This document shows positions 4,136 to 25,846 of a DNA stretch of 33,763 bases, piece after piece (positions within the stretch are counted from its first letter, which is position 1; the number at the start of each line of letters is the position of its first letter). The DNA comes from a virus. Both the position numbers and the translations under genes were made by a program. The notes beneath the pieces are model-generated. The model saw nothing but the letters and a program-made list of their open reading frames with translations. It was not told the DNA's origin and ran no database searches. Location of the stretch: IMG/VR virus record IMGVR_UViG_3300035688_000036, positions 1 through 33,763 of that record; one strand, written 5' to 3'.

Positions 4136-4522
4136 TTGACACCAAAGGAGCAGACGAAGCTGACTGGGATTCTGAGGGAGGGATTGAAGCTGACCGAGAA
4201 GCTGGCCGCGACCGAGGCGCAGCTCGATGGCCTGCGGCGCGAGGCCGCGCAGTTGATGGACGACACATCGTTCATCGTGGAGAGAATCGGGCGCGTCACC
4301 CGTGCCCCGAATGCCCGCACTGTGGTGGATCGGAAGAAATTGGTCGCGCGGCTAGCCGAGAACGCCCTCAAATTCTTCCTCCGGCCAATCTACACGAAGG
4401 ACACTCTGGATGAGGCGCTCAGCCAGGGCATCATTGACGCCGATCTCTACGGCAAAGTCATCGAGGTGCGTCAGGACGAGAAGCGCCCCTGGAAGGTGTC
4501 ATTCGTGCCCGATCAGGGGTAA
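4136..4522 (+). CDS. Hypothetical protein with coiled-coil N-terminus
   Basis: A 128-residue protein with a TTG start at 4136 behind GGAAAGGTGG. Residues about 5-50 form a heptad-like charged helix (KLTEKLAATEAQLDGLRREA) and the remainder is a compact alpha/beta region ending in a Lys/Trp-rich strand (KRPWKVSFV). The position matches Mu genes such as gam or the other small DNA-binding middle genes, but the length and pattern do not convincingly match Gam. Function not assigned. Confidence 0.65.
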   Translation: MTPKEQTKLTGILREGLKLTEKLAATEAQLDGLRREAAQLMDDTSFIVERIGRVTRAPNARTVVDRKKLVARLAENALKFFLRPIYTKDTLDEALSQGIIDADLYGKVIEVRQDEKRPWKVSFVPDQG

Positions 4523-5314: not shown

Positions 5315-5344
5315 AGGACAATATGCCTATGGATGTGATATAAT
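5315..5344 (+). promoter_or_regulatory. Sigma-70-type promoter with extended -10
   Basis: A perfect extended -10, TGATATAAT (TATAAT at 5339-5344), is preceded 18 bases upstream by AGGACA (5315-5320, matching the last four bases of TTGACA). A start would fall near 5351, exactly where the structured element begins, about 140 bases ahead of the terminase genes. Confidence 0.6.
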
Positions 5345-5350
5345 CCTGAC

Positions 5351-5437
5351 ATCGGCGGAATGGGACGGCCTCTGACCGGCGCGATGGTCGGAGCCATTGC
5401 GCGCCAGATGCGCGTCCCGTTCCGCCGTTTATTTTTA
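5351..5437 (+). ncRNA. Candidate small structured RNA or attenuator
   Basis: Arms CGGCGGAATGGGACG (5353-5367) and CGTCCCGTTCCGCCG (5413-5427) pair over 15 bp with one G-U. They enclose an 8-bp hairpin (5370-5377 with 5386-5393, one G-U) and a 4-bp GCGC hairpin (5399-5402 with 5410-5413), a three-way-junction layout. The outer stem is followed directly by TTTATTTTTA. With the promoter ending at 5344, a transcript would start at the stem and stop after it, giving about 85 nt. It could be an independent small RNA or an attenuator in front of the terminase operon. I could not match it to a known RNA family. Confidence 0.5.
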
Positions 5438-5489: not shown

Positions 5490-6200
5490 ATGAATCTAGC
5501 CACGACGACCATCACCCTGCCCCCGATTGCCCTGCGGTCCCGTTGCGCGATCTGCCAGTTGTGGCACGCGGATCCGGCCCTATTTGACGACCTAAACGAG
5601 AAATTGCTCGGCGGCTTTGGCCAGACCAAGCTCCTGGCGTGGCTAAAAACCAAGGGCTTCCGCACGAATCAGACGAGCCTGTCGCGCCACAAGAACAAGC
5701 ATTTGCAGCCCTATTTCAACGATGCCATCGAGATATTACAGACCGCCCGTGCGATCGCCACTACCACCGGCGGCATGGAGAACATCACGCTGGCCGGTGT
5801 CATCCTGCGCGTCCTGGCCGCCAAGGTGCATGATGCGGTCAGTGACATCACCCCGGGCAACATTGGCAAGCTCGACACCCTGGATTTGATGAAGATGGCG
5901 ACGAAATTAGCGGAGGCGATCGCAATGGCCGACCGGACGGCCGCCGATTCGGCTCTCAAGGCCGAGGAGCTCGAGCTGCGCAAACTCCGCTTGGCGAAGA
6001 GCAAAGAAGAGCTTGCGGCGCTCGCCGTGGATTGGCTGCGCAAGGAATTGGCCGGGCGCCCGGACCTGGTGGAGCATCTGCGCGAGCAACTCGCCCTGCC
6101 GGTGCCGGCAGGGGCGGAGTCAGAGCCGGATTCTTCGGTTGCTCCACCGCCTCAGAATGACAAACCCAAGGCGCGCCCGCGGAAGAAGGCCCATGCCTAA
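5490..6200 (+). CDS. Terminase small subunit
   Basis: A 236-residue protein. The N-terminus has the CAIC...H pattern (about residues 19-26) followed by a helical segment ending 'TSLSRHKNKHL' (about 62-72), a known signature of phage small terminases that recognise DNA before packaging. The rest is helical (Ala/Leu/Glu/Lys-rich, about 135-195) and probably oligomerises. The ATG at 5490 follows GAGGAAG at normal spacing; the open frame extends upstream without support. The C-terminal tail (about 214-224) is encoded by a type C repeat at 6129-6162. It overlaps the large subunit start by 8 bases. In Mu the equivalent is gp27. Confidence 0.8.
   Translation: MNLATTTITLPPIALRSRCAICQLWHADPALFDDLNEKLLGGFGQTKLLAWLKTKGFRTNQTSLSRHKNKHLQPYFNDAIEILQTARAIATTTGGMENITLAGVILRVLAAKVHDAVSDITPGNIGKLDTLDLMKMATKLAEAIAMADRTAADSALKAEELELRKLRLAKSKEELAALAVDWLRKELAGRPDLVEHLREQLALPVPAGAESEPDSSVAPPPQNDKPKARPRKKAHA
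6129..6162. repeat. Type C repeat inside the small terminase gene
   Basis: Starts GATTCTTCGGTTGC and ends CTCAGAATGACA, matching the element at 443-477 except in the loop. It is read in frame as a Ser/Pro-rich part of the terminase tail. Confidence 0.75.
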
Positions 6201-7902
6201 ACGCCTGGATCAGATACTCGAGGAACTGGGTGCACCGGCCAATCTAACCGATCCCGTGGCCTGGTTCCAGTCACATATCCGCCTGCGCGGCAAGCCGTGG
6301 GCGCTCGACGGCCACGAATACCTGCGCGCGATCGTCGAGGATCCCGCCGAGCACATTGTCATCGAGAAAGCCGCGCAGCTCGGCATCTCGACGGCGGTGA
6401 TCGGCCGCATGATTCTTGCCTGCCTGACTGGACTCAAGGCTGGGTACTTTTTGGAATCGCGCGGGTACATGACCACATTCGTCCAGGATCGTTTCGACCC
6501 CATCATCACCGCGGACAAGCGTCTCGCGCGGGCCGTGGTCGAGGGCGAGTACCAGGTAGAGGACCTCGCCGGCCGCCACAAGCGGGCGGATAGCGTCCGG
6601 CTCAAGCACATCGGGCCGGGATCGGCCTATTTCTGCGTGACGCAGAAACGGTCGGATGTCAAAAACGTGGACCTCGATCTCGTGATTCTCGATGAGGTCG
6701 CCGAGCTCAATGCCGAGTTGGTGGACTGGGTGGATGACCGCCTGCTCCACAGCGGCTACAAACGGCGCTACGAGGTCAGCCAGCCGGACGTGCCCAACTG
6801 GGGCATTGACGAGCGTTTCCGGTTATCCGATCAGAAATACTGGGCGCTGCGCTGTCCGCGCTGCCGCCTGCGCACGGCGGTCGAGCTGGAGTTCCCTGCC
6901 TGCCTGGAATGGGTGGATGGCAAGCGGCGCATCTCGGCCGGCGATTTCATTCTCGACGAGACCTGCCGGGGCCTCACCACAGACAATTTCCGTCTCGTCT
7001 GCCCGCGCTGCCATGCCCGCCTCGATCCCGAGGCCGGCGAATGGATCACACGCAATCTCGGCGCCCGCATCTCCGGCTATCATCTCTCGCAACTCTATGG
7101 GCCGGCCATCGATGCCCCGGCGATCGCCCGGAAGTGGATCGCGGCTCAAAGTCGGCCGTCACGGATGGCGAACTTCTATATCTCGATCCTCGGTCTGCCC
7201 TATGCTGGCGATCGCCAGCCGCTCACCGAGGAATTGCTCGCCGAGCACTGCGGCGGCTGGCGTCCGAGCCCGAGCGGCACCACGGAGAATCTGCCGAGCG
7301 GCGCCGCCTTCGCGGGGATTGATGTCGGCGATGTCTGCCACCTAGTGATCGTGCGCCGCGGCGACGACGGAGTTTTCCGGTTGGTCTGGGGCGAGGCGAC
7401 GGGCAGTTGGCAACTGCTCGAGCGCCGGCTGCATGATTACGACGTGCGCATGGTGGTCGTGGATGCCATGCCGTACAAAACATCCGCGAAGGCGCTGGTG
7501 CGGGCGTTCAAACGCGGCGCGATCTCCTACATGAGCGCGCAGAGCACGCGCTACAGCATCGAGGACGGCGAGACCGACCCGGTGCACGTGATCAACTGCG
7601 ACCGCACCGAGGCTACCGACGCCCTGGTGGATGCGATGACCGCCGGCGATCTGTGGCTGCCGCGCTCCTCGGAGTTGCTCACGGCGAGCATCAAGGCGCA
7701 CCTGAAAAATCTGATCAAGGATAAGAACGCGGACGGCAGTATGACCTACAAGCGCGGCCTCGATGACCACTATGCCCAGGCCCTCATCCGCGCGCTGCTC
7801 GCGGCGGGCGGCAGCAAGGCGCTGGGCATGGGGCCTTGCGAGCACCTCGGCGACAGCCGGTCGTGGCGCGTGGGCCGCTCCATCGTGCCGACCAAGTGGT
7901 AG
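6193..7902 (+). CDS. Terminase large subunit (GpA/Mu gp28-like)
   Basis: A 569-residue packaging motor protein. The ATPase half has a Walker A-like motif with 'EKAAQLGIST' at 58-67, a deviant form without the usual GKT as in GpA and Mu gp28 types, and Walker B LVILDE (163-168). Two zinc pairs (both CPRC) lie in the central region, typical of the GpA family. The nuclease half has acidic residues in FAGIDVGD, MVVVDAMP and GLDDHYAQAL, the RNase H-like arrangement that cuts DNA at the end of packaging. The upstream part of the open frame (6013-6192) is a shadow of the small subunit. Mu-like phages package by headful from the left end, so the right end of virion DNA carries host sequence. Confidence 0.92.
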   Translation: MPKRLDQILEELGAPANLTDPVAWFQSHIRLRGKPWALDGHEYLRAIVEDPAEHIVIEKAAQLGISTAVIGRMILACLTGLKAGYFLESRGYMTTFVQDRFDPIITADKRLARAVVEGEYQVEDLAGRHKRADSVRLKHIGPGSAYFCVTQKRSDVKNVDLDLVILDEVAELNAELVDWVDDRLLHSGYKRRYEVSQPDVPNWGIDERFRLSDQKYWALRCPRCRLRTAVELEFPACLEWVDGKRRISAGDFILDETCRGLTTDNFRLVCPRCHARLDPEAGEWITRNLGARISGYHLSQLYGPAIDAPAIARKWIAAQSRPSRMANFYISILGLPYAGDRQPLTEELLAEHCGGWRPSPSGTTENLPSGAAFAGIDVGDVCHLVIVRRGDDGVFRLVWGEATGSWQLLERRLHDYDVRMVVVDAMPYKTSAKALVRAFKRGAISYMSAQSTRYSIEDGETDPVHVINCDRTEATDALVDAMTAGDLWLPRSSELLTASIKAHLKNLIKDKNADGSMTYKRGLDDHYAQALIRALLAAGGSKALGMGPCEHLGDSRSWRVGRSIVPTKW

Positions 7903-7915
7903 GAGAATGTGAATC

Positions 7916-8317
7916 ATGGGAAGTTTCTCGAACTATGCCAAGTTGAAATTGCTGGATGAACTGGTCGGCAAGACGGCATTCGCTATGCCAACCGTCTACA
8001 TCGCGCTGTCTACGGCCGATCCGACCGCAGACGGCAGCGGGATAGCGGAGCCGACCGATGCAGCATACGCTCGGATTGTGACGGCTGCCGCTGACTGGAA
8101 TACGGCGGCGGCAGGTCACACTGACAATGCTTCGACGCTCTATTCCCCCGCGGCGACACTGAGTTGGGGGCATCTCGCCTTCTTCGCTGGTTTTGATGCC
8201 GTCAAACCGGGCGGGAACATGCTGTTTTTCGGGGAGTTCACGACCCACAAGGACATTGACCAGGCTGGCGACATCGCGCGGATTGATCCCGGCGACCTGG
8301 ATATCACGCTAACCTAA
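7916..8317 (+). CDS. Virion structural protein, phage tail-fibre-associated family
   Basis: A 133-residue protein. The pattern 'LKLLDELVGK', 'VYIALSTADPT', 'AYARIVT', 'LSWGHLAFFAGFDA', 'NMLFFGEFT' and 'GDLDITLT' is the signature of a small phage protein family, usually annotated as tail fibre or minor structural protein, with a beta-rich fold. AGGAG lies 11 bases upstream of the ATG. It opens an accessory block between terminase and portal that Mu lacks. Location in the particle is unknown. Confidence 0.75.
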   Translation: MGSFSNYAKLKLLDELVGKTAFAMPTVYIALSTADPTADGSGIAEPTDAAYARIVTAAADWNTAAAGHTDNASTLYSPAATLSWGHLAFFAGFDAVKPGGNMLFFGEFTTHKDIDQAGDIARIDPGDLDITLT

Positions 8318-11706: not shown

Positions 11707-13608
11707 ATGAAGATCGGCCCACTCAACTTCTCAATTGGACGTAGGTTTGCGGAGACCAAGACCAAGCCGGCGCTGGGCGAGCTCGGCGCTGCCGGCACGA
11801 ATCTCTGGCGAGGCCTGGTCTTCGAGGAATATCTCACGGATCTGCGCGGCCGGAAGGCATTCGAAACCTACGACCGCATGTTGCGAGGCGATGGCCAGGT
11901 GCAGGCGGTCGAGTTGGCGGTCACCTTGCCCATTCGCGCCGCCGCATGGACGGTCGAGCCGGCCACGGGCGATGATAGTTCCGCCGGCCGCGAGGCGGCC
12001 GACCTCATCCAATCCAACCTGGTCGGCGGCATGACGATCACCTGGGACGAAGTGCTGCGCCATGCCCTGCTCGGGGCGCTCATGGGCGTGACGCTGTTCG
12101 AGAAGGTTTGGGAGATACGCGACGGTCTGGCGGCCTGGCGGAAACTCGCTCCGCGTCATCCGAAGACCATTCTCCGCTGGGAAGCCGACATCGGCGGCGG
12201 AATCCAAGGGATAGTCCAGGCGATCACCGACATCAACAGCAATTATCGGGAAATCCCTATCCCCATCGAGAAACTGATACGTCTCACCTGGCGCGAGGAT
12301 TACGGCAATCCCGAGGGGCGCGCGCTGCTCCGGCCGGCGTATAAACACTGGTACTTCAAGGATTTTCTCTACAAAACCGTCAACATCGCCATTGATCGCT
12401 TCGGCGTGGGGACGCCGCTCGGGCGCCTGCCGGTGGGTTGGACCGAGGAGGACAAACAGGCGTTGCTCCAGATCGTCAACGATTACAAGTCATCCGAATC
12501 TGCCGGATTCGTGCTGCCGCCGGGTTACGAGTTGACTCTCCTCGAATCCCAGTTGCGGTTGCAGGGCATCCAGGCCTACCTCGAACATCAGGACGTGATG
12601 ATCAGCCGCTCGGTTCTCGCGCAGTTTGTCAACCTGGGCACGACGGCATCCGGTTCGCGCGCCCTGGGCGAAGCGCAATCGCGGTTCTTCGTGATGATTC
12701 TCGATGCCATCGCCGATTGGTTCGCCGAGCGGATCAACCGCTACGCGATCCCGCAGTGGATGGGATACAACTATCCCGGCCTCAAGGTTCACCCGCAACT
12801 GACGCACACCGGCATGGATACCGTGCTCGACCCGGCGGGCATCGCAAATGGCCTCGCCCAACTCACCACCTCACACCTACTGACCCCCGACGACGACGTG
12901 GAGAATACCGTGCGAGGTTGGTTCGGGCTGCCCGAGTTACCTGAAGATCACCAACGCGCGGTGAATCAACCGCTCGACGAGACCGATCAATCGGGTGGCG
13001 GCGCCCAAACGGCCACCGACCATCCTTTCCGCATGGGTGATCGCCGCTATGATCCGCATCCGCACGTCGCGCGCGGGCGCGAGCTCGCGCGTGATGAATC
13101 GCGTTTCGAGGCGGCGATGAAACAGGTACTTGAGGAGCAACACAATCGCCTGCTCGACAAGTTGCGACCAATAATCGAGGACTTCCGCGCGGCTGATGCG
13201 AGCGCCAAGGGGCGGCATATCAGCCGGATGCAAGCGGTAGTCGTGCCGCTGGTGGGCAAATACCAGAAGATGCTCGAAGGCTGGCTCTGGGACCTATTTT
13301 CGACTGCCCGCGACCGCGCGGCGAGCGAGTTTGGGGCCAAACCGACCCCCGTCAGCGATGTCCTGCGGCAATGGATCGCCGCGAAAGCCCAGGTATTGGC
13401 CCAGGATCATGCGGAGAAACTCCGCGCATCTGTGCTGCATACCCTGCTCGACATGATCCGCCGCGAACTGCCGACCGCCGACATGCTCAAGGTGCTCAAC
13501 GAGGTCGCACGCGGCCGCGCCGGCGTGGACTTGACCGATGGTTTGCGCGCCGCCGGCGAGGAGCTGGTGGACCTGGTGAACGGCGCCCTGATCGCCGCGC
13601 AAAAATAG
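11707..13608 (+). CDS. Portal protein (DUF935, Mu gp29-like) with MuF-like helical extension
   Basis: A 633-residue protein. Residues about 1-425 match the DUF935 portal core, including 'EEYLTDLRGRKAFETYDRML', the Trp-rich clip region, 'NIAIDRFGVGTPLGRLP' and 'VNLGTTASGSRALGEAQS'. Portals form the dodecameric DNA channel at one vertex. Residues about 425-633 are a long charged, helical extension ('ESRFEAAMKQVLEEQHNRLL' onward) absent from most portals and similar in character to the N-terminal helical part of MuF/SPP1 gp7 proteins. The matching zinc domain appears as a separate gene at 14717. The ATG at 11707 is chosen because the upstream open frame overlaps the Ig-like gene. Confidence 0.9.
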   Translation: MKIGPLNFSIGRRFAETKTKPALGELGAAGTNLWRGLVFEEYLTDLRGRKAFETYDRMLRGDGQVQAVELAVTLPIRAAAWTVEPATGDDSSAGREAADLIQSNLVGGMTITWDEVLRHALLGALMGVTLFEKVWEIRDGLAAWRKLAPRHPKTILRWEADIGGGIQGIVQAITDINSNYREIPIPIEKLIRLTWREDYGNPEGRALLRPAYKHWYFKDFLYKTVNIAIDRFGVGTPLGRLPVGWTEEDKQALLQIVNDYKSSESAGFVLPPGYELTLLESQLRLQGIQAYLEHQDVMISRSVLAQFVNLGTTASGSRALGEAQSRFFVMILDAIADWFAERINRYAIPQWMGYNYPGLKVHPQLTHTGMDTVLDPAGIANGLAQLTTSHLLTPDDDVENTVRGWFGLPELPEDHQRAVNQPLDETDQSGGGAQTATDHPFRMGDRRYDPHPHVARGRELARDESRFEAAMKQVLEEQHNRLLDKLRPIIEDFRAADASAKGRHISRMQAVVVPLVGKYQKMLEGWLWDLFSTARDRAASEFGAKPTPVSDVLRQWIAAKAQVLAQDHAEKLRASVLHTLLDMIRRELPTADMLKVLNEVARGRAGVDLTDGLRAAGEELVDLVNGALIAAQK

Positions 13609-13671
13609 GGCCTGGAAGCCCCCAGGTTGGTTGAGGGCTATCAGAGTACCACCCAGGGGGCGAGCGTGCCC

Positions 13672-13690
13672 TGAATACAGTTGAATACAG
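13672..13690. promoter_or_regulatory. Tandem 9-bp direct repeat, possible operator
   Basis: TGAATACAG occurs at 13672-13680 and again at 13682-13690, a 10-bp period (one helical turn). It lies 16 bases before the GTG of the helix-turn-helix gene and ahead of AGGAAAG. In-phase repeats next to a regulator gene suggest an autoregulatory binding site, but this is inference. Confidence 0.4.
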
Positions 13691-13706
13691 GGTTAGGAAA
13701 GAAACT

Positions 13707-14006
13707 GTGACGGCATTGCAAGCGCTGAAATTGGAATCGCGGCTGAGTTACCAGGAAATTGCGGATGCGGTCGGCCTATCCAAGGGTCAGGTCAGCAATT
13801 TGATCCGCGGGCGCCGGACGAACCCCGAGCACATCCAGCGGATCCGCGTTTTCCTGCGCGGCCAGGTCAAACCGCAATCATCCGACCCCGAGTTCCTGGC
13901 GCAGATCCGCCAGATCGCCGTGCCCTTCCTGCGTTCCGACAAAAACGTAGGGGCGGTTCGTGAACCGCCCGCCCAACCCCAGACGCGGGTGCTCGTCGGT
14001 GTCTGA
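13707..14006 (+). CDS. Helix-turn-helix DNA-binding protein
   Basis: A 99-residue protein with a GTG start after AGGAAAG. Residues about 12-37 (LSYQEIADAVGLSKGQVSNL, then IRGRR) form a clear helix-turn-helix of the Xre/KorB or sigma region 4 type. The rest is a short helical tail. Residues 81-88 (VGAVREPP) are encoded exactly by a 24-bp GTAGGGGCG hairpin repeat, so the original C-terminus was altered. It overlaps the sigma factor by 8 bases and probably acts with it as a regulatory pair. Confidence 0.75.
   Translation: MTALQALKLESRLSYQEIADAVGLSKGQVSNLIRGRRTNPEHIQRIRVFLRGQVKPQSSDPEFLAQIRQIAVPFLRSDKNVGAVREPPAQPQTRVLVGV
13947..13970. repeat. Type A hairpin repeat inside the helix-turn-helix gene
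   Basis: GTAGGGGCGGTTC, then GT, then GAACCGCCC. The arms GGGCGGTTC and GAACCGCCC are perfectly complementary. The 24 bases equal eight codons. Confidence 0.85.
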
Positions 14007-14724
14007 TACCGAGCGCGAGCGGCTGGTGGCGCGGCACATGGGATTGGTTCACGCCATCGCCCGTCAATTCATCGGCCTCGGCGAACCCCTGGAGGACCTG
14101 GTGCAGGAGGGAATCATCGGACTGTTGCGCGCGATAGACCACTTCGATCCCACGCGCGGGATCCAATTCTCGACATACGCGTCCCACTTGGTCACCGGCC
14201 AGATCCGACATGCCCTGCGCGATCGCGGTCGCACGATCCGGCAGCCTGCGTGGGTGCGGGAGTCCATCGGCCGCATCGAGGCCGCGGCGGATGATCTGCG
14301 CCAGGAATTGCAGCGCGACCCGACCATCGAGGAGATTGCCGCGGCGAGTGACCTGCCGCCCGCCCAAGTGAGATTTTTGCGTGAGGTCCATATCCGCAAC
14401 CGCCTCGTCGAGTTCGACATGCCGGCAGACCCGTCCGATCAGTCCGACACATCCGGCTGGTTGGACAAAGTCCCCGCGCCGGCGCCCACTGGGTTTTCCC
14501 TCGAGGACCGGTTGCTGATCCGGCAAGTCTTCGCGCGCCTGCCCGAGCGCCAGCGGCAGATTCTCGTTCTCCGCTTCACCTATGAGTTGAACCACCGTGA
14601 AGCCGCCGTTCGTCTCGGCATCTCCGAAAGCCATTTTAGTCACATCCTGCACGGAGCGATCATGACCATGCGAATGAGGATCAGCCAGGTAACGGAGATG
14701 CCGGAGATACCCAGCCATGCCTGA
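13999..14724 (+). CDS. Sigma-70-family RNA polymerase sigma factor
   Basis: A 241-residue sigma factor. Region 2 (about residues 8-80) contains 'EDLVQEGIIGLLRAIDHFDP' and 'IQFSTYA', characteristic of core-binding and -10 recognition in group 3 (SigB/SigF/SigG-like) factors. Region 3 is at about 85-130 ('DPTIEEIAAASDLPPAQV'). Region 4 is at about 165-225 ('RLPERQRQILVLRF' and the HTH 'HREAAVRLGISESHFSHI'). The GTG at 13999 is preferred because codons upstream come from the repeat. A Ser/Asp linker between regions 3 and 4 is encoded by a GTCCGA-type repeat. It lies inside the virion operon and is likely to redirect host polymerase to phage promoters, a role taken by Mor/C in Mu. Confidence 0.85.
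   Translation: MSDTERERLVARHMGLVHAIARQFIGLGEPLEDLVQEGIIGLLRAIDHFDPTRGIQFSTYASHLVTGQIRHALRDRGRTIRQPAWVRESIGRIEAAADDLRQELQRDPTIEEIAAASDLPPAQVRFLREVHIRNRLVEFDMPADPSDQSDTSGWLDKVPAPAPTGFSLEDRLLIRQVFARLPERQRQILVLRFTYELNHREAAVRLGISESHFSHILHGAIMTMRMRISQVTEMPEIPSHA
14428..14457. repeat. Type D (GTCCGA) repeat inside the sigma factor gene
   Basis: Contains CCGTCCGATCAGTCCGACAC and resembles the tandem GTCCGACCGG-type tract at 18073-18117. It encodes the Asp/Ser-rich linker between sigma regions 3 and 4. Confidence 0.5.
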
Positions 14725-15262
14725 TCTGCCCGAGATCATGAATCAGCACCTGACGATGACCGCGACGGTTATCGTGGGAGAACTGGATGCCGAGGCCCGC
14801 GCGGAGCTCGCCGACCTCGCCCTCTGGCCATTGGCGCAGATCGTCGAGGTGCTCGATGAGCGCACCTGCCCGCTCTGCGAATACGTGGATGGCATGATCC
14901 TCGACCGGCGCTCGCCCGAGTTCGAGCGCTGGCGCAATCCCAGCCATATCAACTGCCGACGCACTCTCGCATATGTCAGCTCGCGTGAACGCGAGATCGG
15001 CCCGGATGGCCAACCGATTCCGACGCGGCCGGATTTTGTCGAGCCGCCCGCGGCCCTGATCTATAAGCACGGTCACTTCGTGGTGGACCCCGAGCGTTAT
15101 TCTCCCCTGCGCATCCCCGCGCAGCCCGAGGGCCGCGATTTCGTGTTCAAGCGCATCCGGGATCCCGAGAGTGGGGATTTGGTGTCGGTGCTCCACTGGC
15201 GGACGCGCATGTACGAGATACCCGGCCTCAAGCCGGGCACAATCCAGATTCCCGCGCCATGA
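14717..15262 (+). CDS. MuF-type head morphogenesis protein, C-terminal zinc domain
   Basis: A 181-residue protein with the signature 'DERTCPLCEYVDG' (about residues 52-64) followed by 'HINCRR' (about 77-82), the conserved Cys/His end of MuF/SPP1 gp7 minor head proteins. Full MuF proteins are 250-450 residues; the missing helical N-terminal part resembles the extension on the portal (425-633). MuF proteins sit inside the head near the portal and help assembly or DNA ejection. Its start overlaps the sigma factor stop. The split arrangement suggests that the regulatory pair was inserted here. Confidence 0.8.
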   Translation: MPDLPEIMNQHLTMTATVIVGELDAEARAELADLALWPLAQIVEVLDERTCPLCEYVDGMILDRRSPEFERWRNPSHINCRRTLAYVSSREREIGPDGQPIPTRPDFVEPPAALIYKHGHFVVDPERYSPLRIPAQPEGRDFVFKRIRDPESGDLVSVLHWRTRMYEIPGLKPGTIQIPAP

Positions 15263-15266
15263 GGGA

Positions 15267-15294
15267 TTGACAACCGGGCGATTCGTGGTATAAT
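15267..15294 (+). promoter_or_regulatory. Consensus sigma-70 promoter
   Basis: A perfect TTGACA (15267-15272) and a perfect TATAAT (15289-15294) are separated by 16 bases, five bases after the MuF-type stop codon. This is the strongest promoter-like sequence in the window and should be read by the host housekeeping sigma factor. Confidence 0.85.
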
Positions 15295-15344
15295 GCGAAT
15301 GTGATGTCGCGCGCCGGGTACCCCCGCGCGCCCGATAAAGCGGA

Positions 15345-15358
15345 AAAACTACATATTC
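15345..15358 (+). other. Internal match to the phage right-end repeats
   Basis: AAAACTACATATTC matches AAAACTACAAATTC of the right-end repeat (33513-33526) at 13 of 14 positions. It is an A+T-rich island in a very GC-rich leader and lies near the middle of the element. It may be an internal transposase-binding site; this is inference. Confidence 0.4.
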
Positions 15359-15411
15359 GCGGCGCCGCCGGGCAAGCTTGGCCCCCCCCGCTCGGTTGGT
15401 AGTCTGACCTA

Positions 15412-15492
15412 AAAGCCGAGAAGTCGCCCAATTCCCTATTGGGATGCGTGTTGCATCCAGGGGAATGCGGCAACCTCTCGGCTTTGCTTTTT
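15412..15492 (+). terminator. Rod-like hairpin followed by a T run
   Basis: The 10-bp closing stem (15412-15421 with 15476-15485), stacked internal helices and the following GCTTTTTC give an intrinsic-terminator-like end. It lies only about 18 bases before the ATG of the protease gene, so it would limit read-through into the head genes unless relieved. Confidence 0.55.
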
Positions 15493-15509
15493 CGTGGGAG
15501 CCGCCGATC

Positions 15510-16964
15510 ATGTCGGACATGACAATCGAGACGATCTTTCCACAGACCTTGCCGGCGCGGGTATTCGCCGAGCTCGGCCTCGCCGATGCCGTCGCCGAGG
15601 ATGAATCAAAAAACCAACGCTGGATTCCCCTGGTGCCTCTGGGCAAGTGGGATCATCCCCAGTACGGCAACCTGGAGATCACGCCCGCGACCATCCAGCG
15701 GATGCACGATAACCACGAAGTCGGTCTGCCCGGGATTGAACTCCCAATTGACATTGACCATTCTTATGGCGGTTCGTCCGAGGCCGCGGGTTGGTTGGTG
15801 AGCACCGAGGTTCGCGCCGATGGTCTCTGGGGATTGGTCGAGTTCAATGACTGGGGCATGGAACTCGTCGAATCCAAACGGTTTCGCTATATCAGCCCGG
15901 AATGGTTCCCGAAATGGAAGGACCCACAGACCGGCAAGCACTACGAGGATGTCCTGACATCAATCGCGCTCACGAACCGGCCGTTTTTCAAGGACCTTCC
16001 GGCGCTCCTGGCCAGCACGACCGATCGCGGCCGCACCTATGTCGCCTATCAATTCGCCTGGGAACAGAAGGGCGAGGAGATCTGGCACCGGATTCGCGAT
16101 CCGAAGGATTTTCGCCCCGATACCATGCGTTCGAAGGACATGCCCGGCATCAAGGGCGTGCGGATGATCCTGGGGAAGCTCAAGCCGGAGAATGTCGCCA
16201 AGGATGGCGATCCGGACGCGATGGTGCTCCAGGCCCTGCGATTCGATAAGGAAACGTGGACGGTCGAGAAAGCCAAGGAGTGGATAGGTAAACACCCCAA
16301 TATCAGGAAGGCTGCCGCCGACGTGGCGGCTGAGGATATTCGCCGCATGGCGGCAGATCAAACAGGAGATACTCACATGCCCGACGTTACCCCGAACCCG
16401 AACCCGATTGCCAATCCCGACACGGCGCCAAAACCGGACCCCGGCGCCACATCGACAACAGGCGCCGACAGCGGCGCCGGCGCCATCAGCATGGCGGAGT
16501 TTCAGGCGGTGAAGGCCCGCGCCGAGGCGGCTGAGAAGTCCGCCATCGAGGCGAACAAGGCCGCCGGCGCCGCCCAGGCCGAGCTCGACCGCACGAAGGT
16601 GCGCGGCGTCATTTCGGCCCTGCGATTCGGCGATGACAAGCGCCGCGCGATCGCGCCCGCGATGGTGGATGTGCTGACCGACACCGCCATGCGCTTCACC
16701 GCCGGCGAGGAACGCGACAAGCACCTCAAGTCTCTCGAGGGATTGTCGTTCGTCGAGCTGGGCGAGCGGGGCGATGGCGGCTCGGACGCCGCGGGCGGGA
16801 CCGCCAACGAGAAGCTCGATGCCGCGATCAAGGTGAAGATGGCCGCCACGAAGGATCTCGGGTACGGCGACGCCATGCAGATGGTCGCCAAGGAGCAACC
16901 GGGCCTCATCCAGGCACGTGATGCCGAGATTCGCGGCGCCCAGCCGGTTCTGCGTGGCAAGTAG
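15510..16964 (+). CDS. Mu I-like head maturation protease with scaffold region
   Basis: A 484-residue protein. Residues about 30-160 match the phage I protease family ('RWIPLVPLGKWDHPQYG', 'LPIDIDHSYGG' with Asp83-His84-Ser85, 'SKRFRYISPEWFP', 'SIALTNRPFF'). Residues about 188-270 are an inserted domain ('WHRIRDPKDFRPDTM', 'GIKGVRMILGKLK', 'WTVEKAKEWIGKH') that I know from other phage morphogenesis proteins. The remainder is Pro/Ala-rich and then coiled (about 330-365), the expected scaffold portion as in Mu I/Z. GGGAG precedes ATG 15510; the open frame further upstream runs through the RNA hairpin and is rejected. Confidence 0.85.
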   Translation: MSDMTIETIFPQTLPARVFAELGLADAVAEDESKNQRWIPLVPLGKWDHPQYGNLEITPATIQRMHDNHEVGLPGIELPIDIDHSYGGSSEAAGWLVSTEVRADGLWGLVEFNDWGMELVESKRFRYISPEWFPKWKDPQTGKHYEDVLTSIALTNRPFFKDLPALLASTTDRGRTYVAYQFAWEQKGEEIWHRIRDPKDFRPDTMRSKDMPGIKGVRMILGKLKPENVAKDGDPDAMVLQALRFDKETWTVEKAKEWIGKHPNIRKAAADVAAEDIRRMAADQTGDTHMPDVTPNPNPIANPDTAPKPDPGATSTTGADSGAGAISMAEFQAVKARAEAAEKSAIEANKAAGAAQAELDRTKVRGVISALRFGDDKRRAIAPAMVDVLTDTAMRFTAGEERDKHLKSLEGLSFVELGERGDGGSDAAGGTANEKLDAAIKVKMAATKDLGYGDAMQMVAKEQPGLIQARDAEIRGAQPVLRGK

Positions 16965-18578: not shown

Positions 18579-19532
18579 ATGCCTCCCGAAACAACCGATC
18601 TTTACCTCGACGTCCCCCTCACCAACGTCTCGATTGCGTACCGCAACCCCGGGTTCGTCGCCGAGGAAGTGCTGCCGATCATCCCGTTCGCGGCCAAGTA
18701 CGGGAAATATCCCGTGTTTGGCTACGAGCGGTTCATGATCCCGATGACGCACCGCGCGCCGCAGACTGCACCGGCGCGCATTGACTGGTCGCTCGCCTGG
18801 ACCGCCTTCGAGGCGGAAGAGCAGACCATCGAGGTCGCCCTCGATGATCAGCAGCGCCAGCAGAGCGGCTCGGTCAACGCCGAGCGCTCGAGCGTGAACA
18901 TCGTCACGGAGCAACTCCTGCTCGCGCGCGAGAAGCGCGTCGCCGACCTGGTGCTCAGCACCAGCGTGATCACGCAATACGACACCCTGGCCGGCGACGA
19001 GCAGTGGGATGACGCGGATTATGCCGCGGTCAATGATCCCATCGCGCGCTTCCTCACCGCGCAGGAGACCATCGCCGCGGCAACCGGGATGGTCCCCAAC
19101 CGCGCCGTGATGTCGCGTCAGGTCTTCAATGCGTTGCGCCGCCACCCGCTGATCCTCGAGCGGGTCAGCATGACCGGCACCGGCGGCCGCGATGCGCGAG
19201 TTATCAATGCCGAGATACTCGCCCAGGTCTTTGACCTCGAGCGCGTCCTCATCGCCGACACGCAGTACAACTCGGCGAAGGAGGGCGCGAGCGTGGACAT
19301 TGACCCGGTGTGGAGTGATTCGGTGCTCATCTACCACTACCGGCCAGGCCCCGAGCTCGAGATGCCGCGCCTGGGCGCGATTCTGAACTGGGAGGCGATG
19401 GCCCTTCCGCGCCAGATCACGCGCTACCGCGAGGCGCGGATCAAGTCGGACGTGTTCCAGTGCACCGAGTACGTGGATGAGGTAGTCATGTCGGCCCCGA
19501 GCGGCTACTTGCTCACGGACGTGCTCGCCTAA
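18579..19532 (+). CDS. Major capsid protein
   Basis: A 317-residue protein with the HK97-type capsid pattern: an N-terminal 'VPLTNVSIAYRNPGFVAEEV', a 'GKYPVFGYERF' strand, a helical P-domain ('QLLLAREKRVADLVL'), 'PNRAVMSRQVFNALRRHPLI', and a C-terminal 'YREARIKSDVFQCTEYVDEV'. It forms the icosahedral shell and is the likely substrate of the upstream protease, although there is no long N-terminal delta domain. AGAGG lies ahead of the ATG. Its length and context agree with capsids of Mu-like siphophages. Confidence 0.88.
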   Translation: MPPETTDLYLDVPLTNVSIAYRNPGFVAEEVLPIIPFAAKYGKYPVFGYERFMIPMTHRAPQTAPARIDWSLAWTAFEAEEQTIEVALDDQQRQQSGSVNAERSSVNIVTEQLLLAREKRVADLVLSTSVITQYDTLAGDEQWDDADYAAVNDPIARFLTAQETIAAATGMVPNRAVMSRQVFNALRRHPLILERVSMTGTGGRDARVINAEILAQVFDLERVLIADTQYNSAKEGASVDIDPVWSDSVLIYHYRPGPELEMPRLGAILNWEAMALPRQITRYREARIKSDVFQCTEYVDEVVMSAPSGYLLTDVLA

Positions 19533-23047: not shown

Positions 23048-25846
23048 ATGCCCGACGAATCCACCTTAGACATAGTAATCCGCGCGAAAAACCTGGCCTC
23101 CGGCGTCCTCAAGCAGGTACAAAAGGACGTTCAGGATGCGACCAAAGCGGCCGCCGCGCCAGCCGCCATGCCGCGCGCCGCCGCGGTCGTCCCCGACGTC
23201 AAATCAGTGATGGCATCCCTGCACGCCCAGCAGGTGGCGATCCTCAAGCAGGGTTTGGCTGCTCCCGGCGACCTCCGGCGCCGCACGCGGTTGCTGGCGC
23301 AGGAAACTCTCGGGCGGCTCACCGCCGGTCCCGCCCCGGGCGCCGTAGGATTTGCCGCCGCCGCCGCCGCCGCCCCGACCATCCGTCGCATCCCCCTGCC
23401 CTCCGGCGCCACCCTCGGCCGCGAGATATTCTCCGACCTGGCCAGGGCATCCCGCGACACGATCCGCGATGCCGTCTCTCGCGTCCGCGCCGCCGCCGGC
23501 GCCATGCCCGCCGCCGTCCCCCGTGGAGCACAGCCGCCCTCGCCTGTATCTTTCCGCGCGCCCGACCTCTCCCTCTGGCAGCGTGCCCAGGGGTTGGCCT
23601 CCAGGATCGGCGCCTCGATCTCCGGTATGTTCCGCGGCGTGAGCCGAGACGCCGACCAGGCTGGATCTTCGCTCGAAGGTGCGAAACGGAAGTTCGACAT
23701 TTTCGGTGTCGGCGTCCTTCATCACCGCATTATAGGTAGTCTGTCCGGAACACTGATCCTGCGCGGCGCGGCGGGGATGCTCATTGGCATCTTCGGCGCC
23801 GTCGCGAGCGCGGTCGGCAGCATCATCCATATCCTGGATTCGGCCATCCAAGCCATCCTGCGTTTTGCCCAGGCGATCCTCTCGGCCGCCGTCGCCGCCC
23901 TCCACAAGCTCGTCCTTGCCGTGGGTGTCGCCGGCGCCGCGATCATGGGCTTCACGGCGATCCTGCTGCGCGTTGGCTTCGGGTATGAGGATTTCCGCCG
24001 CAACCAGATAGAAATGCTTGCCGTCCTGCTCAAGTCGCCGGCCGCCGCCACCGCCGCCTACAACTCGATGAAGAAATACGCCGAATCCCTGCGGCTCGAT
24101 CCCCGACCGATCATCGAGGCGGGGATAGCTCTCACCGATTTCGGTTTGGATGCCCAACGATGGCTGCCTGTCGCGGCCAATCTGGCTGCGCGCGCGCGCA
24201 AACCGATCCTCGAAATGGCCGAGTTGCTCGGGCGCGCCGGCGAGGAAATGATGCTCATGCGCGCCCTGGCCCAGATGCGCATCGGCCCGAAGGAATTGGC
24301 GACGGTCGGCGTCAAGTTCAGACAACCTACCCCCGGCAGCGCGCCCCAGCCTATGGATCGTGCGCAGCTCCTCGCTGGCATCGAGCGCCTCATGAAGCGC
24401 GATTTCCCCGACGCCGCCCGCGCCGGCATCTCCACTATCGGGCGTATCTGGCAGGGCATGAAGAATATCGCCGACAATGCCGCCCGCGAGATGACCCTCG
24501 GCGCCTATGCCGTCGTGCAGCGCGCCGGGGACCGCCTCTTCGCCCAGTGGGAGAAGTTCAAGACCTCTACCGCCTGGCAGACCATCAAGGAGCGCCTGGG
24601 CGGAGCCCTGGCCTATGTTCTCGATCTCATTACCCGCCTCATCGCCCGCGCACCGCAGTTGGCCGAGCGCATCGCCGCCATGCTCCAGCGCGCCCCCATC
24701 GAAGAGTTTCTGACCGGCCTGCGCGCGATTTCCATTTTCCTCTGGAATACCCTCAGCCGCACGGTCGAGACGGTCAGCAAGTTCATCGGCGAGAGCCTCC
24801 GCGCCGCCGGCTTCAACGGCGCGACCGGCTTCCAGGCGATCCTCATCGTCCTCGCCGAAGTCGCCGCCGGCACCGATGCCGTGATCACGACCATCATCGA
24901 AAACTGGGCGGAACTCTCGAACTGGATGAAGCGGGTCGCGGTTTCGATCAAGGCGGTGGTGATCGAGGTCTGGACTTTCGCCAAGACGATCCTGGGTGCT
25001 ATACTCCAAATCGCCGCACGCCCACTCGCCCTCCTCGGCCTTTTCGTGAATGTGTTGGCCGAGAAAATCATTTCAATCATCGCCCTGATAAAACAACTGA
25101 ATCCCGCGAATTGGAATGCTGCCGCCTTCGAGCGAATATGGGCTCCGGTTGCCAAGTTCCGCAAGGAATTGGAAGCCACCGATCGCATCTATACCGCCAT
25201 GCTCACGCGGGGATTCAAGGGCGGTTGGGAAGAAGTCCAACGCCAAGCGATGAAGGGGATCAAAGCCAAGGTTAGCCTCGATTTCCCCGAGATAGATCCG
25301 CTGTCGCTCGCCCGCAAGGCGGCCGATGCCGCCCGCGCCGCCGCCGGCAAGGCCCGCCAGGATATGTCCGTCCTGCTCACCCAAACCGTGAAGCTGCCGA
25401 TCATGCCGAAAGAGGATCCCGGGAAGGCCGTCGCCGACGGCGCCAAGCAGGGCATCGTCGAGGGCATGAAGGAAGTCGCCAAGGATTTCGTGTCCCAGGT
25501 CTGGGGGGGCACCGCCGAGATGCTGAAAAAGGCGGGCTTGACGGCCAAATACTATGAGCAGATCGGCGTCCCCACCGCCCACGGCGAATCCCGTGGTGGG
25601 GCACAGCCGCCCCGCCAAACAGCCGGCGGGCAAGCCTCGGCTGTGGCTTTTCCCGAGCGCGCCCAGGCCGGCCTCGCCAACCTGCGCCTCGCCGGCGCCG
25701 GCGCCGGGCCCGGCATCAACCTCAATCTCACCGTCAACGCCTCGCCCATGCTCGCCGCCGAGCTGCGCTCGCCCTCGGTGCGCCGCGAGATCGAAACCGC
25801 CATCGAGAGCATCATCGAGCGCGTCGCGCGGAGGTTCCGCGGATGA
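23048..25846 (+). CDS. Tail tape measure protein
   Basis: A 932-residue, mainly helical, Ala-rich protein. A hydrophobic region at about residues 225-320 ('GAAGMLIGIFGAVASAVGSI' onward) and a second at about 640-690 are typical of tape measures, which pack in the tail lumen, set tail length and can enter the host membrane. The N-terminus starts 'LDIVIRAKNLASGVLKQVQK', a usual opening. The length predicts a tail of roughly 140 nm by the common 0.15 nm per residue rule. Two type B repeats (23523-23550 and 25596-25646) are translated in frame as Pro/Gly/Ala-rich inserts. Confidence 0.9.
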   Translation: MPDESTLDIVIRAKNLASGVLKQVQKDVQDATKAAAAPAAMPRAAAVVPDVKSVMASLHAQQVAILKQGLAAPGDLRRRTRLLAQETLGRLTAGPAPGAVGFAAAAAAAPTIRRIPLPSGATLGREIFSDLARASRDTIRDAVSRVRAAAGAMPAAVPRGAQPPSPVSFRAPDLSLWQRAQGLASRIGASISGMFRGVSRDADQAGSSLEGAKRKFDIFGVGVLHHRIIGSLSGTLILRGAAGMLIGIFGAVASAVGSIIHILDSAIQAILRFAQAILSAAVAALHKLVLAVGVAGAAIMGFTAILLRVGFGYEDFRRNQIEMLAVLLKSPAAATAAYNSMKKYAESLRLDPRPIIEAGIALTDFGLDAQRWLPVAANLAARARKPILEMAELLGRAGEEMMLMRALAQMRIGPKELATVGVKFRQPTPGSAPQPMDRAQLLAGIERLMKRDFPDAARAGISTIGRIWQGMKNIADNAAREMTLGAYAVVQRAGDRLFAQWEKFKTSTAWQTIKERLGGALAYVLDLITRLIARAPQLAERIAAMLQRAPIEEFLTGLRAISIFLWNTLSRTVETVSKFIGESLRAAGFNGATGFQAILIVLAEVAAGTDAVITTIIENWAELSNWMKRVAVSIKAVVIEVWTFAKTILGAILQIAARPLALLGLFVNVLAEKIISIIALIKQLNPANWNAAAFERIWAPVAKFRKELEATDRIYTAMLTRGFKGGWEEVQRQAMKGIKAKVSLDFPEIDPLSLARKAADAARAAAGKARQDMSVLLTQTVKLPIMPKEDPGKAVADGAKQGIVEGMKEVAKDFVSQVWGGTAEMLKKAGLTAKYYEQIGVPTAHGESRGGAQPPRQTAGGQASAVAFPERAQAGLANLRLAGAGAGPGINLNLTVNASPMLAAELRSPSVRREIETAIESIIERVARRFRG
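23523..23550. repeat. Type B repeat inside the tape measure gene
   Basis: GTGGAGCACAGCCG, then CCCTCGCCTGTATC, a slightly decayed type B unit, read in frame as 'GAQPPSPVS'. Confidence 0.65.
25596..25646. repeat. Interrupted type B repeat inside the tape measure gene
   Basis: GCACAGCCGCCC and CCTCGGCTGTGG are the two halves of a type B unit, separated by about 22 bases (CGCCAAACAGCC...GGCAAG). The composite is read in frame as 'GAQPPRQTAGGQASAVA'. Confidence 0.65.

Follow-up and report, generated by a model that had tools for sequence, protein, structure and literature searches.

Promoter-terminator units before two late operons of a transposable phage suggest lambda-like restraint of late genes by early termination

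A strong promoter in a non-coding gap between two head genes raises the question of what its transcript does. The DNA analysed here, called the window throughout, is an IMG/VR virus sequence of 33,763 nucleotides, and its gene content indicated a transposable Mu-like phage. A predicted RNA, named RNA1, fills the 247-nt gap between a MuF-like gene and a head maturation protease gene. The first-pass annotation had suggested two roles for it: a 6S-like RNA acting in trans, or a leader that gates head-gene expression. The leader was the better supported of these suggestions, with a syntenic unit in a related phage, a terminator before the ribosome-binding site of the protease gene and a second unit before the terminase operon. 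We consider it probable, by a narrow measure, that RNA1 is a late-operon leader gated by termination, following the design of lambda pR'-6S RNA-tR' at Mu-type positions.

Two relatives were used for comparison. A terminase search identified IMG/VR 3300032046_006286 (L032), the terminase of which was 77% identical, and a second search added L038. The genes of the window to which the text refers are as follows; a large terminase gene is also present.

496-1224: MuB-like protein
5490-6200, + strand: terminase small subunit-like gene (Mu Gp27-like), the first gene after the second unit, RNA2 (PF11985, E 2e-4, below gathering score); homologues at L032 8203-8987 and L038 7560-8264
11617-13608: Mu-type portal
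13707-14006, + strand: small HTH protein upstream of the MuF-like gene, candidate regulator, conserved in the three phages
13960-14724, + strand: sigma-70-family gene with regions 2, 3 and 4, among the three phages only in that of the window
14717-15262, + strand: short MuF-like gene for head morphogenesis, the neighbour upstream of RNA1 (phrog_241, E 3e-5; 66% identical in L032)
15510-16964, + strand: Mu gene I-like head maturation protease, the first gene after RNA1 (PF10123, E 3e-11; phrog_328, E 7e-18)
18579-19532: capsid
23048-25846: tape measure gene

The elements of the RNA1 unit, in order, are listed below.

15267-15294, + strand: RNA1 promoter, with TTGACA at 15267-15272, a 16-nt spacer, TATAAT at 15289-15294 and an extended -10 (CGTGG-TATAAT)
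15301-15493, + strand: predicted RNA1 transcript, non-coding, about 193 nt, drawn from the promoter and the terminator, with the start set by the -10 spacing
15357-15371, + strand: conserved block 1, TCGCGGCGCCGCCGG, identical in L032, containing the 10-nt palindrome GCGGCGCCGC
15398-15420, + strand: conserved block 2, GGTAGTCTGACCTAAAAGCCGAG, 22/23 identical in L032, the last 9 nt forming the 5' arm of the terminator base
15412-15493, + strand: RNA1 terminator, a rod at 15412-15485 followed by the U-tract GCTTTTTC (z -6.6)

The RNA1 promoter matched the consensus at 12/12 positions, and a TG one base 5' of the -10 hexamer made it an extended -10 promoter. Across 400 simulated windows with the dinucleotide make-up of the window, the number of perfect TTGACA/TATAAT pairs was 0, and TATAAT with at least 5/6 matches in the -35 occurred 0.015 times per window. 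These results indicated that the promoter is real and well above chance expectation, and the perfect TTGACA-16-TATAAT described at 15267-15294 was thus borne out. At the other end of the predicted transcript, the U-tract stops a few bases 5' of the GGAG in the ribosome-binding site of the protease gene. The earlier statement that no frame in the RNA is coding was nearly right: an ATG frame of 32 codons lies inside RNA1 at 15304-15402, and the corresponding stretch of L032 has no start codon. A leader peptide was rejected on the ground that this frame is not conserved in L032.

The stability of the RNA1 region was compared with that of shuffled sequences. The 196-nt region folded at -87.2 kcal/mol (z = -3.76), and all of its excess stability sat in the 3' rod at 15412-15485, which reached -41.1 kcal/mol (z = -6.6) and was matched by 0 of 1000 shuffles. 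The 110-nt 5' part (15301-15410) was about as stable as its shuffles (z = -0.41), as was the 5' part of RNA1 in L032 (z -0.04). The GCGCGC hairpin taken alone gave z = -2.3 and was absent from L032. Because the 5' part folded no better than shuffles, the GCGCGC and AAGCTT hairpins were regarded as near ordinary for their base composition. The elaborate fold that had been claimed for this RNA therefore held for the 3' rod followed by GCTTTTTC and failed for the 5' hairpins. The four stacked helices seen in the rod resolved into one continuous stem with small internal loops. In a custom scan, the rod ranked second in strength among terminator-like hairpins on the + strand of the window, and it stood outside the 12 most stable 85-nt folds of that strand. 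The description of RNA1 as the most elaborate fold in the window was accordingly not upheld, as the RNA2 rod (5346-5430, -56.8 kcal/mol) was more stable.

Next, the RNA1 unit was compared with its counterpart in L032. In the same gap, L032 carried a perfect TTGACA-16-TATAAT at 13649-13676, followed by a syntenic RNA1 homologue at 13683-13835. Block 1 was identical and block 2 read GGTAGTCTGAyCTAAAAGCCGAG (22/23), while the surrounding non-coding DNA had diverged. All of block 1 and the 5' portion of block 2 fall outside the terminator, and a bare terminator leaves both unexplained. The palindrome GCGGCGCCGC in block 1 is not a rare site, as the window contained 3 copies of it and the relative 6. 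The L032 spacer between promoter and block 1 was about 40 nt shorter and lacked the GCGCGC hairpin. The rod was 75 nt long in L032 (z -5.2), nearly equal to the 74-nt rod of the window, and its U-tract (TTTTCGCATTT) was weak. The base helix AAAGCCG/CGGCTTT was invariant between the two phages; in the inner rods most bases differed and both still folded (z -3.2 and -3.6). Covariation, proposed by the first-pass annotation as a check on the fold, was thus partly observed: compensatory changes were clear in RNA2, but RNA1 offered two sequences only, in which the base helix was invariant and the inner helices had diverged yet remained paired. L038 does not cover RNA1, because its record ends inside the MuF-like gene (15206), some 90 nt short of the expected RNA1 start. 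A competing antiterminator hairpin, CTCGG/CCGAG, was considered in the RNA1 of the window and rejected by inspection; it is not conserved in L032.

A second unit, RNA2, came to light through a 15-nt match of the RNA1 promoter to L038; it precedes the terminase genes (window 5315-5437) and was absent from the first-pass annotation.

5315-5344, + strand: RNA2 promoter, AGGACA-18-TATAAT (TATAAT at 5339-5344) with TGTGA before the -10, 10/12 matches plus extended -10
5351-5437, + strand: predicted RNA2 transcript, about 87 nt, with a rod at 5353-5427 and the U-tract TTTATTTTTA (z -6.8)

No 85-nt stretch on the + strand of the window folded more stably than the RNA2 rod. RNA2 was present in all three phages, with homologues at L032 8041-8131 and L038 7389-7455 and their TATAAT at 8029-8034 and 7377-7382, respectively. 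With up to one mismatch allowed, TGNGGTATAAT was found only at both units in the window and in the L032 record and once in L038, with 0 occurrences on the other strand. In the base helix of RNA2, 5/8 pairs had changed on both sides and 0 were broken across the three phages. Only 3/500 shuffles did as well, and sliding the partner strand destroyed the pattern. The three sequences were aligned manually on their common GGGACGG, which biases the comparison towards structure, and most of the changes are common to L032 and L038. RNA1 and RNA2 had no common RNA motif beyond the promoter and rod design.

To locate further units, we scanned for a strong -10 (with a -35 or an extended -10) that had a strong hairpin and a T-rich tail no more than 260 nt downstream. 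In the window together with portal-related contigs (341 kb), the scan returned 11 places, 5 of which were RNA1 or RNA2 units (2 in the window, 2 in L032 and 1 in L038), all on the + strand and before late operons. The remaining 6 places were weaker and scattered. The same scan returned 0 places in seven Mu-like phages (Mu, D3112, B3, martha, MuM16-2, YPCBV-1 and TJ1; 253 kb). Before gene I, these phages have about 130 to 340 nt of non-coding DNA or, in D3112, a moron region. The more distant portal relative L027, read directly, had no comparable unit, nor did the other portal relatives that were scanned; a weak promoter-hairpin at L002 2115 was judged not comparable. The DNA of RNA1 had no similarity among 50,697 phage records, and searches of genome contigs with a 22-nt pattern from the RNA and with an alignment of two terminase sequences recovered no relative. 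Among the viral contigs matched by 19- and 17-nt patterns, L032 was a true relative; L031, L033, L035 and L036 were chance matches in unrelated DNA and were set aside.

The arrangement suggests the following course of events. A strong promoter of the host sigma-70 type would start an RNA before the head protease gene, and the long-stemmed intrinsic terminator directly 5' of the protease ribosome-binding site would stop it after about 190 nt. The second, shorter unit of like design would head the terminase operon in the same way. Most transcripts made from the prophage or at the start of infection would then be short, terminated RNAs. At the late stage, a phage factor that acts at the promoter or through the conserved RNA blocks may let the polymerase read into the head genes. 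We infer that transcription starts and stops at the predicted sites and that read-through is regulated.

The terminated late transcript of lambda is the 6S RNA, of about 194 nt. The likeness to lambda pR'-6S RNA-tR' consists in a strong sigma-70 promoter, a non-coding RNA that is terminated early (RNA1 being about 190 nt long) and a terminator between this promoter and the late genes. Unlike lambda, the phage of the window is transposable, has two units rather than one and terminates at a long rod. In lambda, a DNA element recruits the Q protein, which is loaded where the polymerase makes a sigma-dependent pause close to the promoter (PMC7171158). In contrast, no Q-family protein was found here (PF06530 and PF03589 had no match in the three records, of which L038 and perhaps L032 are incomplete). 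A lambda-type pause element was not recognised by eye: the first 25 nt of the five units, counted from approximate, predicted start sites, had no consistent -10-like hexamer. A search with PF06323 gave no signal anywhere, controls included. Because no Q-family protein was found, we did not class the units as lambda-type late leaders and liken them to these only in their working.

Mu has four late promoters, including Plys and PI (PMC4461284). RNA1 lies at the position of PI, in the gap before gene I, where Mu also has a non-coding gap. RNA2 heads the gp27-like terminase operon, which in Mu is served by Plys, and both units lead late genes on the + strand. The late promoters of Mu have non-consensus -10 and -35 elements and need the activator C, whereas the RNA1 promoter is a perfect consensus and no Mor/C protein was found: PF08765 was absent from the three records (L038 and perhaps L032 being incomplete) and was detected in the Mu and D3112 controls. 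The RNA2 promoters of L032 and L038 have a poor -35 (3/6) and for that reason are compatible with the non-consensus promoters of Mu. RNA1 also has a terminator between promoter and gene, whereas the Mu gap showed none in the same scan. As neither the Mor/C nor the Q families were found, the antitermination step is drawn from the design only. The HTH protein at 13707-14006 and a 128-aa protein at 4136-4522 are candidates for the regulator.

The main rival is a trans-acting small RNA. RNA1 would then be a moron with its own promoter and terminator, expressed from the prophage, with host RNAs, phage RNAs or a host protein as its target, which we consider unlikely. A strong constitutive-type promoter, a dedicated terminator and the lack of a conserved coding frame all fit such a moron, and a trans role keeps some probability because two blocks outside the rod helices are conserved. 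The position fits as well. Mu-like phages of Pseudomonas have a moron site in the gap before gene I, which in D3112 is occupied by the anti-CRISPR gene acrF2. A promoter and a terminator typically flank a moron (PMC4378225). RNA1 resembles the D3112-like anti-CRISPR locus in lying in the gap between head gene(s) and gene I; it differs in holding no protein gene, in an unrelated promoter sequence and in having a second copy of the design elsewhere. A second unit of like design before the other late operon counts against a moron, as does a terminator that abuts the ribosome-binding site of the protease gene. No conserved antisense target of RNA1 was found within the window phage or L032. Rfam returned 0 families for RNA1 at the gathering threshold and nothing relevant at E up to 10, and the 5' domain folded no better than shuffles. 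A 6S-like RNA acting in trans, as first suggested, thus received no positive support; unlike bacterial 6S RNA, RNA1 had no match to an Rfam model. A tRNA or tmRNA was also considered, and none was found.

A still less probable explanation is an unregulated boundary, in which the rod serves to end transcripts of the operon upstream, a constant leak from the promoter through the rod sets the head-gene level, and the short RNA is a by-product. The phages martha and MuM16-2 carry a strong intrinsic terminator in the corresponding gap before gene I, and leaky terminators are common, which counts for this explanation. On the other hand, both terminators follow the promoter of their own operon, which would waste a perfect promoter, and the conserved RNA blocks would be left unexplained. 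An RNA anti-CRISPR (Racr), in which RNA1 mimics a CRISPR repeat and ties up Cas proteins, was considered because known Racrs lie shortly after a promoter and away from cas genes (PMC10651486), and D3112 has an anti-CRISPR site at the corresponding gap; it is highly improbable, as similarity to typical I-C, I-E, I-F and I-B repeats (generic forms, perhaps not those of the host) was weak and inconsistent between the two phages, only I-C did somewhat better than shuffles (15/300 and 5/300) and this in GC-rich sequence, and the GCGCGC hairpin is not conserved.

We therefore return to the termination-gated leader and its wider meaning. Transcription activators are the known means of late control in Mu-like phages. 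A bolder and rather unlikely reading is that this lineage uses paired promoter-terminator leaders in place of Mor/C activation, together with a new antitermination factor or a signal carried by the RNA itself, as HK022 put RNA does, for which the conserved blocks GGTAGTCTGAYCTAAAAGCCGAG and TCGCGGCGCCGCCGG would be the candidates. If the leader reading is true, lambda-style termination control also arose in transposable phages, with an antiterminator that the profiles used here missed. The two units would then form a two-site system for a direct search for the antitermination factor.

Several genes near the units had features of their own. The sigma-70-family gene lies between the portal and MuF-like genes, and a sigma factor of its own in the late block is unusual for a Mu-like phage. 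At the corresponding place, the L032 record had nothing above the cut-off, so this sigma factor is not required for RNA1 and was rejected as its cause. The HTH protein has homologues at L032 12715-13104 and L038 14475-14786, and a conserved SDPEFLAQIRQVAVPFL stretch is present in all three phages. A protein of 128-130 aa (window 4136-4522; L032 5841-6233; L038 4132-4524) was about 73% identical between phages by translated BLAST; it had no convincing Pfam or PHROG match and is among the best conserved genes of the lineage. Residues 181-288 of the protease (window 16050-16373) were 44% identical to L001 1183-1527, which lies inside a large ORF that appears to hold DNA methylase-like segments; this protease stretch looks like an inserted mobile domain. 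At L032 13842-13874, a perfect hairpin (CGCCCCGATTGCTCGGGGCG) stands between the GGAG and the protease start codon, as if bringing a distant ribosome-binding site close. Finally, L032 carries repeat-like intergenic text between late genes at 12560-12600 and 12965-13095 (TGGAGCACAGGCGCTCCCGCCTGTG and GAATCTGTGCAATCTGTGG), which might point to the host group.
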